This document shows positions 44,384 to 48,872 of a stretch of 64,000 bases of DNA, piece after piece. Positions within the stretch are counted from its first letter, which is position 1, and each line of letters starts with the position of its first letter. The position numbers were made by a program, and so were the translations under genes. The stretch is from Pseudomonas neustonica (GTDB taxonomy: Bacteria > Pseudomonadota > Gammaproteobacteria > Pseudomonadales > Pseudomonadaceae): the NCBI RefSeq assembly GCF_003797945.1, contig NZ_RKKU01000001.1, forward strand, positions 186,001 to 250,000, in the 5' to 3' direction. The notes under the pieces were generated by a model. It saw nothing but the letters and a program-made list of their open reading frames with translations, did not search any database and was not told where the DNA came from.

Positions 44384-46519
44384 ATGAAATTCAAGTCCAT
44401 TCAGCTATCCATCGCAGTGCTTGCTGGAGCTTGTCTGTTCATCGCAGTCGGGGTCATGACCCTGTACTCGGTCTATTCATCCGAGCGCAGTCAGGCCTAC
44501 GTTCAGGGGCGCAGCGAACAGCTGCTTGAGGGGTTGGTAAAGGATCGTCTGCTATCCATTGCCAATGGCGAGCGATCACGTATTCAGCGCCGCCTGGAAT
44601 ATCCCATCGCGGTTGCCCAGCAGGTAGCCAATCTCAACGCGATGTTGGGTGAGATACAGCCTGACGGTATGCCTTCGTTGATGATGGGTCGTGAAGAAAT
44701 GACGCGCGTGCTCCGTATGACCTTGGCAGAGAATCCCGATCTGTGGGATGTCTATGTCGGTTGGGAGCCGAATTCGCTCGATGAAATGGATGAGTTTTAC
44801 CGAGGGATAGAAACCGATGGCTATGACGGTAGCGGCCGTTATATGCCGGTCTGGTTTCGAGGTGAGGGTGGCGAGCTTGAGCTTGAACCCCTGGGTGACA
44901 TGGAGAGTACAACGCTGCTTGATAGCGGTGTTCGCACCGGCGAGTATTACTTGTGCACGAGGGAAACGCTTAAACCCTGCGTGATTGATCCTGCCTCCTA
45001 TGAAATGGGTGGCAAGCAAGTATTGCTGTCATCGTTCACCGTACCCATCATCGTCGACGGTGAGTTCAAGGGCGCGGCCGGCGCCGATTTGGCCATGGAC
45101 TTTCTGCAGAATATGTTGACCGAGAGCGACAGTGAACTGTACGACGGTCAGGGCGATCAGGCGCTGGTCAGCGACAAGGGGCGTCTGGTTGCTTACACGG
45201 GTACCGATGCTCGTCCGGGTGATCGTGCCGATACTGTGCTCGATCAGCACGAGCTGGCGAATATGGCATCCCTTGGTGATGAGCCCATTTACGATATCGA
45301 CGAGGAGGGTGGGCATATCGAGTTGATCATGCCGATCACCTTTGGTGACAGCAATACGCGTTGGTCCCTGTTGATCACGCTGCCACTGGAAGCGGTTATG
45401 GCTGATCTCGACGCGCTCAACGCAGAGCTAAAGGATCAGCGCGTTGCCTCGGCAGTATGGCTGGCGGTGATCGGGTTTCTGGTTGCGCTGGTTGGGCTGG
45501 TCGTTATGGTCTTCGTTGCTTATGGTCTTGCCAAGCCTGCGCGCAGACTGGTCTCCATGCTGGATGATATTGCCAAGGGGGATGGCGACTTGACCAAGCG
45601 GCTTGAGGTCGATCGTGCGGATGAGTTGGGCGCCATTGCCAGCGGTTTCAATGCTTTCCTGGACAAGTTGCAAGGCATGATTCGCGAAGTGGTCGGCTCC
45701 GTGCAGCAGGTTACTGACGCCTCCGAGCACACCGCTGATATTGCCATGCGGACCAATGATGGCGTTCAACGCCAGCTCAGTGAAATCGATCTGGTCGCTA
45801 CCGCTGTTACAGAGATGACAGCTACTGCGCAGGATGTGGCGCGCAATGCGTCGCAGGCAGCCAGTGCGGCCCATAACGCAGATGGCTCGGCGACGCACGG
45901 CCGCGAGGTAGTCAAGGCGACCTCCGACACCATCATGGCGCTCTCTCAGGATATTCAGCGCGCTGTTGAAAGCGTGCGCTCGCTGGAGCGTGATAGTGAG
46001 AATATCACCGGTATTCTGGACACCATCCGCGGTATTGCAGAGCAGACCAACCTATTGGCTCTGAACGCTGCAATCGAGGCTGCTCGCGCCGGTGAGCAAG
46101 GGCGTGGCTTCGCGGTGGTTGCCGATGAGGTGCGTAACCTGGCCCAGAAAACGCAGAGCTCGACGGCTGAAATTCAGACCATGATCGAGCAGTTGCAGAA
46201 TGGCACCAAGGAAACGGTAAAAGTGATGGAGCAGAGCCGGTCGCGGACCGACCAGAGTGTGCTGCAGGCCGAAGAGGCAGATGCTGCACTGACCTCAATC
46301 ACGCAAGCGGTATCGGTCATCAACGATATGAACAATCAGATCGCCAGCGCTGCTGAAGAGCAAAGCGCGGTAGCTGAAGACATCAATCGCAATGTCATGA
46401 CCATCGATACCGTTGCCAAGTCGGTTGCCAAAGGGGCTGATGAAGCATCTGAGGCCAGTGCGTCACTGACCAAGCTGGCCGAGCATCAGCGTCGTCTGAT
46501 CAATCAGTTCAAGGTCTGA
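44384..46519 (+). CDS. Methyl-accepting chemotaxis protein with dCache sensor
   Basis: This 711-residue receptor has a membrane anchor (residues about 7-29). A large periplasmic double Cache domain follows (about 30-345), including [23 protein letters not shown] and [33 protein letters not shown] second helix (about 355-382), HAMP (about 383-435) and a signalling domain complete it; the hairpin tip is [20 protein letters not shown]. The ligand is not evident; dCache receptors often bind amino acids or polyamines. GAGG precedes the ATG. It is under a sigma-28 promoter, implying a motile cell. Confidence 0.93.
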
Positions 46520-47154
46520 ATCGGGCCACTGGGGTTGCAGCAATGCGGCCCCTTGGTTTCTGGGCTGCTGACCGCGCTCGCAACCGGGTGGATCATTTCT
46601 ACCTGGGCGTCAGCATTGAGTAATAAGGGTTGTAGTGCACTGACCGGCGTTGCCTCTGCGAGCCATATTGACTGTTCGCCGCTGTTGAGTGCCACCGGCA
46701 TGCGTTCAGCCAGCGTGGCTGGCAGTCCTTTGGATGGCACCGTTATCAGTGCGCAGCTATCCCAGTAGTGCTCTTTATCCAGTTGATAACGCTCCCAAAT
46801 GCCCGCCAAAGCCAAGCCACCCTCGCGACGACGCAAATACCAGGGGTGCTTGCGCGAGCCGTTATTTTTCCAGAGATAGTAACCGTTGATCGGGATCAGG
46901 CAGCGCCGTTTGGCAAACGCTTGCTTGAACATAGGCTTTTCGTGCAGAAACTCGGCCCTGGCGTTGAAGCTGGCGCGGCTCAGATCCTTGAGCCATCCAG
47001 GCGTGAGGTTCCATAACACCGGCACGCATTCCAAGCGGCCCTGCTGCTTACGCAGGATCAAGACACGGCCACCTGGGGGCAGATTCCAGTCAGGCTTCCA
47101 GTCGGTCGGAGTGCTTGCATGCGGAGGGGTGAACTGGGCAAGGCGTCCAGTCAT
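46504..47154 (-). CDS. SRAP-family protein with degenerate active site
   Basis: This 216-residue protein has the SRAP (YedK/HMCES) fold, recognised from [29 protein letters not shown] and LAERMPVAL. In active SRAP proteins residue 2 is the cysteine that crosslinks abasic sites, the middle motif is GFYEW, and the last is H-x-RMP. Here residue 2 is Thr (MTGRLAQF), the Glu is Leu94 and the His is Ala149, while Asn64 is kept. Abasic-site crosslinking is therefore not expected. It overlaps the DUF2007 stop as ATGA, and its 3' end overlaps the convergent chemoreceptor gene by 16 bases. Confidence 0.88.
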
Positions 47155-47413: not shown

Positions 47414-47608
47414 TTAATCCTGTTCGCGGCGCAGATCGACATGGTAGTCGTCCTGCTCGTGGTCAATCCACAAGCTAACGTGGATAGGTTGGCAGCAGAC
47501 CTCACAGTCTTCTATATAGCTTTGAGTGCCGCTGGCGATATCGAGTAGTAGCACAATAGGTTCGCCGCAATGCGGGCAGGCGAGGGTGGCTTCTTCTAGG
47601 GCCTGCAA
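47414..47608 (-). CDS. CPXCG-motif cysteine-rich protein
   Basis: This 64-residue protein has two CxxC pairs, CPHCGEPI near residue 11 and CEVCCQPI near residue 35, probably binding one zinc. The rest (QSYIEDCEVCCQPIHVSLWI) matches the CPXCG-motif small-protein family. Function unknown. It is first of the three-gene run ending in the SRAP-like gene. Confidence 0.87.
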   Translation of the reverse strand: MQALEEATLACPHCGEPIVLLLDIASGTQSYIEDCEVCCQPIHVSLWIDHEQDDYHVDLRREQD

Positions 47609-47723: not shown

Positions 47724-48872
47724 ATGGGCGAGTTTGATGCTATTCGGCCGTATAACGACGCTGAGGTGCCTGCTGTAATGGAGCGCCTATTGGGCGACCA
47801 GGAGCTGATGCGGATGCTGGCTGCATATCGTTTTCCGCTACTGGCACGCTGGTTTCCGGGTGTGGTGCGGCGCGCGGTGCAGTTTGCTCTGCGGCGCGAG
47901 GCAAGGGGTATCCAGTGTGTTGATACCTTGCAGCACAAGCTGGAGCCCTACCTTGATCGTGTGATCGAAAGCAGCACTCTCAACGTTACCTACAGTGGCC
48001 TCGACAATTTGCGCCAAGGTCAGGCTTACCTGTTTCTGGCCAATCATCGTGATATCGTGATGGACCCGGCCTTCGTTAACTACGCCCTTTACCATACCGG
48101 CCATCCAACTCCGCGGCTGGCCATTGGTGACAATTTACTTCAGCGCCCCTTCGTTGCCGACCTGATGCGGTTAAACAAGTGTTTTATCGTGCGCCGTTCA
48201 CTGACCGGGCGCCGAGAGAAGTTGCAGGCTTATCAAATGATGTCCGCTTATATCAGTCATTCACTGGCAGAAAGCGAATCAATCTGGATTGCGCAGTCTG
48301 AAGGACGTGCGAAGGATGGGCTGGATGAGACTGATCCGGCGATCATAAAAATGTTTTGTATGAGCCGCAAGGGAGAAGAATTTGGTCCGTTGATTCGCTC
48401 TCTGAATCTGGTGCCCGTGTCCATTGCCTACGAATGGGATCCTTGTGACCTGTTGAAAGCTCGTGAATTGGAGCAGAAGGCGCGGCTGGGTGAGTATCAC
48501 AAGGAGCCAGGCGAGGACGACAGATCTATCGCTATGGGGCTGACGGGCTACAAAGGGCGTGTGCATGTTGCGTTTGGTGAGCCGCTGCAGGACGACTACG
48601 CTGATGCCAAGGCAGTAGCGCGAGCAGTGGATAAACAGATTCTGACGAATTACCGACTATCGCCAAGCAATTATTTGGCGATAGAGCAGCAGGGCCAGAT
48701 TCCCGCGCAAGTGGCTGCCTGGCGTAATGACTTCACTCCGACTGAGGTTGCCGCAGAAGAGCAACGTTTTAAGACCAGACTGGCTGCCTGCCCGAGTGAT
48801 CAACGTGCTTACTGGCTGTTGCAGTATGCCAATCCGGTCCACAGTCGCCTGCGAGTCTTAGAGCATCAATAG
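47724..48872 (+). CDS. PlsC-domain acyltransferase
   Basis: This 382-residue protein has a lysophosphatidic-acid-acyltransferase (PlsC) domain with the HX4D motif as NHRDIVMDP near residue 109 and a downstream EGRAKDG segment near residue 192. It would acylate a glycerophosphate or related lipid. The N-terminal 85 residues and the long C-terminal part place it in a Pseudomonas-type PlsC subgroup distinct from housekeeping PlsC. No signal peptide is visible. It is monocistronic. Confidence 0.82.
   Translation: MGEFDAIRPYNDAEVPAVMERLLGDQELMRMLAAYRFPLLARWFPGVVRRAVQFALRREARGIQCVDTLQHKLEPYLDRVIESSTLNVTYSGLDNLRQGQAYLFLANHRDIVMDPAFVNYALYHTGHPTPRLAIGDNLLQRPFVADLMRLNKCFIVRRSLTGRREKLQAYQMMSAYISHSLAESESIWIAQSEGRAKDGLDETDPAIIKMFCMSRKGEEFGPLIRSLNLVPVSIAYEWDPCDLLKARELEQKARLGEYHKEPGEDDRSIAMGLTGYKGRVHVAFGEPLQDDYADAKAVARAVDKQILTNYRLSPSNYLAIEQQGQIPAQVAAWRNDFTPTEVAAEEQRFKTRLAACPSDQRAYWLLQYANPVHSRLRVLEHQ

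Follow-up and report, generated by a model that had tools for sequence, protein, structure and literature searches.

The SRAP proteins YedK and HMCES, which crosslink to abasic-site (AP) DNA, are the closest described relatives of the gene considered here. In the available sections of two papers, the cysteine at position 2 is called absolutely conserved (PMC3765255) or invariant (PMC9436759) in SRAP proteins, and the stable thiazolidine crosslink of Escherichia coli YedK is stated to require Cys2, with Glu105 driving Schiff-base formation and His160 aiding ring opening (PMC9436759). The available part of the same source describes only a modest defect for the N75A mutant, and less crosslinking with undisrupted DNA binding for YedK active-site mutants (PMC9436759). 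It also records both Schiff-base formation and AP-DNA cleavage by the C2A protein, and adds that E105Q, introduced into C2A, brings the lyase rate constant down to 0.002 from 0.05 and Schiff-base formation down to 0.2 from 1.7 (PMC9436759). Protein-DNA crosslinking and SOS response are among the GO terms given for one annotated canonical SRAP record.

In this study, we analyzed an SRAP gene found in a window of 64,000 nucleotides from Pseudomonas neustonica, together with its relatives in Halopseudomonas, other Pseudomonadales and bacteria outside the order. A search of the open literature, in which few subscription papers were covered, returned no report of this SRAP lineage lacking the catalytic residues.

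The altered SRAP gene and its neighbours

The features of the locus are listed in Table 1. The reading frame begins with an ATG at 47154-47152, has the N-terminus MTGRLAQ and ends with a stop codon whose last base is 46504. It matches the Pfam SRAP profile (PF02586) with an E-value of 8.6e-44 and 150.1 bits, against a curated cut-off of 27.1. The initial annotation had claimed the loss of three catalytic residues, and both the translation and the alignment bore this out: the cysteine required at position 2 of an active YedK/HMCES-type crosslinker is a threonine, and the residues corresponding to Glu105 and His160 are leucine and alanine. The two nearest orthologues, L026 (90% identical) and L037 (86%), share the Thr2, Leu and Ala states, and the start motif [M/V][T/S/A]GR is found in 36/36 Halopseudomonas rows; a sequencing error or a wrongly chosen start was thus rejected.

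Table 1. Coordinates of the SRAP gene, its catalytic-position codons and the adjoining genes
Feature	Coordinates	Strand	Basis
Putative SRAP pseudoenzyme, 216 aa (Thr2, Asn64, Leu94 and Ala149 at the four catalytic positions)	46504..47154	minus	
Thr2 codon (Cys2 in canonical SRAP)	47149..47151	minus	sequence and alignment
Asn64 codon (YedK Asn75)	46963..46965	minus	sequence and alignment
Leu94 codon in GYYLW (YedK Glu105; GFYEW-type motif)	46873..46875	minus	sequence and alignment
Ala149 codon in AERMP (YedK His160; HxRMP-type motif)	46708..46710	minus	sequence and alignment
DUF2007 protein, 86 aa	47151..47411	minus	PF09413, E 1e-11
CPXCG cysteine-rich protein, 64 aa, TTG start	47414..47608	minus	Cys_rich_CPXG PF14255, E 2.1e-20
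plsC-like acyltransferase, divergent, synteny marker	47724..48872	plus	
Methyl-accepting chemotaxis protein, convergent	44384..46519	plus	named from its sequence

The DUF2007 and CPXCG proteins previously proposed as operon partners were both confirmed by Pfam, with the DUF2007 stop codon running into the start of the SRAP gene at 47151-47154. We take the CPXCG protein to be a zinc ribbon; sequence searches returned no informative solved relative for either partner. The operon is adjoined by no SOS polymerase or repair genes, its neighbourhood consisting of DUF2007, CPXCG, the acyltransferase and the chemotaxis receptor, and a search for exact matches to CTGTN8ACAG, the pattern that we used for the LexA box, gave zero hits within the window. 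A chemotaxis-receptor gene stands beside the SRAP gene at 31/36 Halopseudomonas loci; in the window their 3' ends share 16 bases (46504-46519), and a similar arrangement was seen in L069-L073.

The plsC-like neighbour was present at 36/36 Halopseudomonas loci, at 67/68 loci of other Pseudomonadaceae and at 8/8 loci of the family f8. DUF2007 was found at 23/36, 64/68 and 8/8 of these loci, respectively, and CPXCG at 32/36, 52/68 and 0/8. Since 13 of the 36 Halopseudomonas loci yielded no DUF2007, and four of these no CPXCG either, DUF2007 is not essential to the role of the SRAP protein. At several of the loci without DUF2007 the CPXCG gene directly abuts the SRAP gene, the partner having been lost within the genus.

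Conservation of the gene and loss of the catalytic set in Halopseudomonas

The altered SRAP gene was identified in 36 of the 37 Halopseudomonas genomes searched (that of the window included), and the sole exception is a genome that is 81% complete. None of the 36 altered proteins has the catalytic Cys, Glu or His. A scan of named genomes recovered 26 loci, the records being Halopseudomonas, related or unclassified. Nine loci without a recognised SRAP start or belonging to other SRAP types (L058-L060, L062-L067) were left out before counting, as were duplicates of genomes already included (L068-L095, L098, L161, L165, L224-L227); L139, the one row of family f37 (MAGR), was also excluded from the counts.

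A second SRAP gene on another contig of the same genome as the window (G000:C27) is canonical, with MCGR, GWYEW and HDR intact. It had been proposed that a conserved clade of altered proteins stands beside a canonical MCGR paralogue in the same genomes. The conserved clade was recovered and so was the canonical copy of this genome, but a canonical partner accompanies the altered gene in only 12 of the 36 genomes, whose canonical copies in the paired charge comparison all carry the Cys, Asn, Glu and His; in the other 24, G030 among them, no complete second SRAP was found at an E-value of 0.001. Two further kinds of match were noted among the loci left out. L067 (G030:C43:35794-35976) is a 60-position match to the SRAP C-terminus inside a long reading frame whose start presumably encodes a transposase, and an intact altered SRAP gene lies elsewhere in G030. 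L059, L060 and L063, all from one Halopseudomonas genome (G015), have CSHYEAP in place of MCGR at the N-terminus and EPDW near the Glu motif, and from these motifs look like another divergent SRAP subfamily.

To describe the pattern of loss, the 36 rows were compared with 79 rows of the canonical type (E. coli YedK, 52 sequences of the genomes sampled and 26 loci outside the order), taking the 21 columns in which one residue occurs in at least 93% of the canonical rows, start Met excluded; this cut-off was picked only after the table had been seen. Fifteen of the 21 columns are unchanged in 36/36 Halopseudomonas rows and two are partly kept (Ala76 27/36, Val208 20/36). At only four columns do most Halopseudomonas rows depart from the canonical residue, namely Cys2 (79/79 in canonical rows, 0/36 here; S23 T9 A4), Glu105 (0/36; L19 V7 I4 M3 S1 G1 A1), His160 (0/36; G24 A7 S4 T1) and Asn75 (5/36; S30 N5 T1). 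Lowering the cut-off to 90% adds four columns, of which Gly102 (36/36) and Gln114 (31/36) are kept and Gly62 (0/36; N31 K4 R1) and Arg77 (13/36; Q12 N6 K5) are lost, and the loss is therefore not limited to the four catalytic residues; raising it to 95% leaves 17 columns, with only Cys2 and Glu105 lost. As judged from the aligned columns, residue loss is centred on the catalytic site and extends to Gly62 and Arg77 in the pocket or channel, which is evidence against an unchanged pocket. Ala100 is replaced by Val or Ile in 36/36 Halopseudomonas rows, and this residue could form a pocket plug with Leu, Val or Ile at position 105. We take Arg4, Pro40, Trp67, Arg77 and Arg162 to be non-catalytic residues of the DNA-binding channel, and Arg77 to be a likely DNA contact; apart from Arg77, all are present in 36/36 rows.

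The median dN/dS was 0.197 and the maximum 0.43 among the 408 of 630 Halopseudomonas pairs that were kept (dS 0.05-1.5), 61 of the 216 positions are invariant in the genus and no internal stops occur in its SRAP matches. The proposal of an intact gene held by constraint rather than in decay thus agrees with the data, and a pseudogene was rejected on the presence in 36/37 genomes and the dN/dS values. Positions 94 (Glu105) and 149 (His160) fall in the 87th and 73rd percentiles of entropy. On a tree of 94 rows, residue 2 has changed 13 times or more, always among C, S, T and A, and by parsimony Glu was lost no fewer than two times and the state of residue 2 switched between Cys and not-Cys no fewer than five times. 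Met1 is normally removed before Cys, Ser, Thr or Ala, so that a small residue 2 permits Met1 removal and the exposed N-terminal amine may still be important; the assigned start is Val (GTG) in 14/36 rows. A new active site built from the conserved Cys85, Cys134 or Cys205 was also considered and rejected, as no replacement nucleophile was evident; Cys85 occurs in 64/79 and Cys205 in 16/79 canonical rows as well.

An AlphaFold model of the protein, made with 94 diverse alignment rows, had a pLDDT of 95.8 and a pTM of 0.92. Foldseek matched this predicted model to 21 PDB chains at E<=0.001, the best being YedK crosslinked to AP-DNA (E 5.4e-17) and others including HMCES-DNA complexes. In the VIA comparison of the model, 15 SRAP entries scored Z values of 19-26 with 186-207 residues aligned (24-26 for the YedK and HMCES entries), and the next row scored 2.5. 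The protein is accordingly predicted to keep the SRAP fold. Of the earlier statement that the fold and the Asn are both retained, the predicted fold stands; the Asn is present in this protein but is Ser or Thr in 31/36 Halopseudomonas rows.

The core net charge of the altered proteins averages +5.6 (2 to 9, n=36), compared with -3.7 for the genus's own canonical proteins (n=15). Wherever a genome has both types, the altered protein is the more basic of the two (12/12 genomes; Wilcoxon p 0.0005, phylogeny ignored). The charge shift is support and not proof, since a mildly basic core (mean +2.3, n=26) is also seen in canonical SRAPs from outside the order.

Related genes in other families and their phylogeny

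In other Pseudomonadaceae the gene was read at 68 loci, drawn from 106 non-Halopseudomonas genomes, the remainder of which had weaker, unlisted, canonical-only or no matches; no SRAP of any type was found in 7 of 119 Pseudomonadaceae genomes. Given how widely these loci share the plsC-like, DUF2007 and CPXCG neighbours, they are counterparts of the Halopseudomonas locus by position. Describing the altered gene simply as a paralogue is therefore only half right: a canonical copy exists, but the altered gene is the positional counterpart of the same-locus SRAP gene of Pseudomonadaceae. Unlike the Halopseudomonas proteins, the same-locus proteins retain Glu105 in 68/68; Cys2 is present in 31/68 (otherwise S27 T10), position 75 is His or Gln, and the six residues before position 160 are deleted in 68/68, with an aligned His in 4/68.

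Eight loci were read in f8, from nine genomes with matches. They resemble Halopseudomonas in their DUF2007 and plsC-like neighbours (8/8) and in the replacement of the His, and differ from it in having Cys2 and Asn75 in 8/8, Asp (4) or Gln (4) in place of Glu105, and no CPXCG found. The 17 loci of f36, which we guess to be Halomonadaceae, are like Halopseudomonas in having lost all four catalytic residues (Ala/Thr2, Cys75, Val/Ile/Leu/Ala105, Thr/Ser/Gly160) and unlike it in keeping Arg77 and Gly62 in 17/17; none of DUF2007, CPXCG and the plsC-like gene was found within about 1.5 kb of any of them. Outside the order, Cys2 is present in 26/26 loci read, these being the best-scoring ones from 113 genomes with matches. 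Across the four divergent groups, Arg4, Pro40, Trp61, Trp67, Glu79, Arg95, Trp106, Arg162, Pro164 and Trp175 show no variation (129/129 rows). On these alignments, the SRAP active sites of Pseudomonadales appear to be eroded to differing extents by family.

Halopseudomonas, the other Pseudomonadaceae, f36 and f8 each formed one group in both trees reconstructed. In the first tree, whose bootstrap had not settled and which included L139 (as did its topology test), divergent and canonical rows were split with 95/87 and Halopseudomonas grouped with f36 with 91/80 (not starred). The second tree was built from 94 rows with another alignment, the five pocket columns blanked and L139 excluded. In it no branch set the canonical rows apart from all others (such a split occurred in 34% of bootstrap trees), so that one common origin for the divergent groups is not firmly supported. 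Grouping Halopseudomonas with the Pseudomonadaceae gene of the same locus was not rejected in the first test (p-AU 0.30), and with the second data set this clade lay 2.5 log units above the free tree (p-AU 0.65). We follow synteny and take the Halopseudomonas gene as the positional counterpart of that Pseudomonadaceae gene, the sequence trees being compatible with more than one sister group.

A mobile origin was also considered and rejected, as all matches among plasmids (1647 records) and phages (51 records) were below 60% identity and the one plasmid copy inspected was canonical. The SRAP protein had no match in an anti-phage library, and two PHROGs families of unknown function were matched. 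One unverified Bacteriophage sp. record from human faeces (L254, MT836019.1) contains an SRAP of Pseudomonas type, the N-terminal portion of which lies outside the reading frame, and this stretch is probably bacterial rather than phage DNA.

Possible roles and comparison with known SRAP proteins

The retained SRAP profile, the predicted fold and ten conserved non-catalytic residues, combined with the lost catalytic set, make the altered protein a probable conserved pseudoenzyme. Without Cys2, Glu105 and His160 no stable thiazolidine crosslink is expected, judging from the YedK mutants in the available part of that source, and since YedK active-site mutants still bind DNA, the altered protein may still bind it as well (PMC9436759). 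We put at about one half the probability that it binds single-stranded DNA or single-strand/double-strand junctions without crosslinking. It would then be a reversible, non-covalent binder that possibly still recognises abasic sites and would shield the site or hand it over instead of trapping it, with a basic surface in place of covalent capture, and it would have originated from Pseudomonadales SRAP genes whose active sites were eroded variably by family. Points against this role are the drift of Gly62 and Arg77, the Val or Ile at position 100, the mildly basic canonical SRAPs outside the order, the lack of an exact LexA-box match in the window and the non-repair genes around the operon.

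It is possible, and we would not call it far-fetched, that the fold was instead repurposed away from DNA as an adaptor or regulatory subunit working with DUF2007 and CPXCG, the conserved residues serving folding only. The codon overlap between the DUF2007 and SRAP genes, the frequent presence of DUF2007 at the loci and the drift of Arg77 are consistent with such a subunit, and residues such as Trp19, Trp105, Trp131 and Asn180, invariant in Halopseudomonas and rare elsewhere, could form a new surface. Against it, the SRAP gene persists at the 13 Halopseudomonas loci without DUF2007, including those also without CPXCG, the f36 genes stand apart from these neighbours at 17/17 loci, and Arg4 and Arg162 are unchanged in every row of the four groups. 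Some chemistry might also survive, the free amine of Thr, Ser or Ala2 forming a reversible Schiff base in a weak AP lyase or a transient holder of AP sites. The restriction of residue 2 to C, S, T and A argues for this, as does the activity of YedK C2A in the available part of the source, but Glu105 is lost in Halopseudomonas and E105Q slows precisely that C2A chemistry (PMC9436759). Position 94 is moreover among the more variable ones, so we think residual chemistry rather unlikely here; it fits the other Pseudomonadaceae better, since they keep Glu105 in 68/68 while carrying Ser or Thr2 in 37/68. That the gene is a relic, a decaying repair gene retained by chance or by its place in the operon, would agree with the eroded active site, the GTG starts and the Pseudomonadaceae genomes devoid of SRAP. 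The near-universal presence in the genus, with its one exception in an incomplete genome, the low dN/dS, the invariant positions and the absence of internal stops all speak against a relic, which we hold to be very improbable.

A bolder extension of non-covalent DNA binding, which we offer tentatively, is that an irreversible suicide crosslinker of AP sites was turned into a reversible, multi-turnover sensor of DNA lesions or junctions with DUF2007 and CPXCG as signalling partners. If this were true, f8, the other Pseudomonadaceae and Halopseudomonas would represent graded losses, and the change from covalent to non-covalent action could be traced stepwise. These proteins are candidate natural separation-of-function variants with which SRAP roles other than crosslinking can be probed, and they advise caution, as a crosslinking annotation should not be transferred to SRAP relatives by homology alone.

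Compared with the known systems, the altered protein is like YedK and HMCES in its Pfam profile and its predicted fold over 186-207 residues, and ten YedK residues (Gly3, Arg4, Pro40, Trp61, Trp67, Glu79, Arg95, Trp106, Arg162 and Pro164) occur in 36/36 Halopseudomonas rows. It differs from them in being without Cys2, Glu105 and His160, in having Asn75 mostly replaced across the genus and in the drift of Gly62 and Arg77, and unlike the SOS-type SRAP operons its gene does not lie beside SOS polymerase genes. A gene that is near-universal in the sampled genomes of its genus and under constraint, yet has lost Cys2 along with the other catalytic residues, stands against the absolutely conserved or invariant Cys2 described in the available sections of the SRAP literature.
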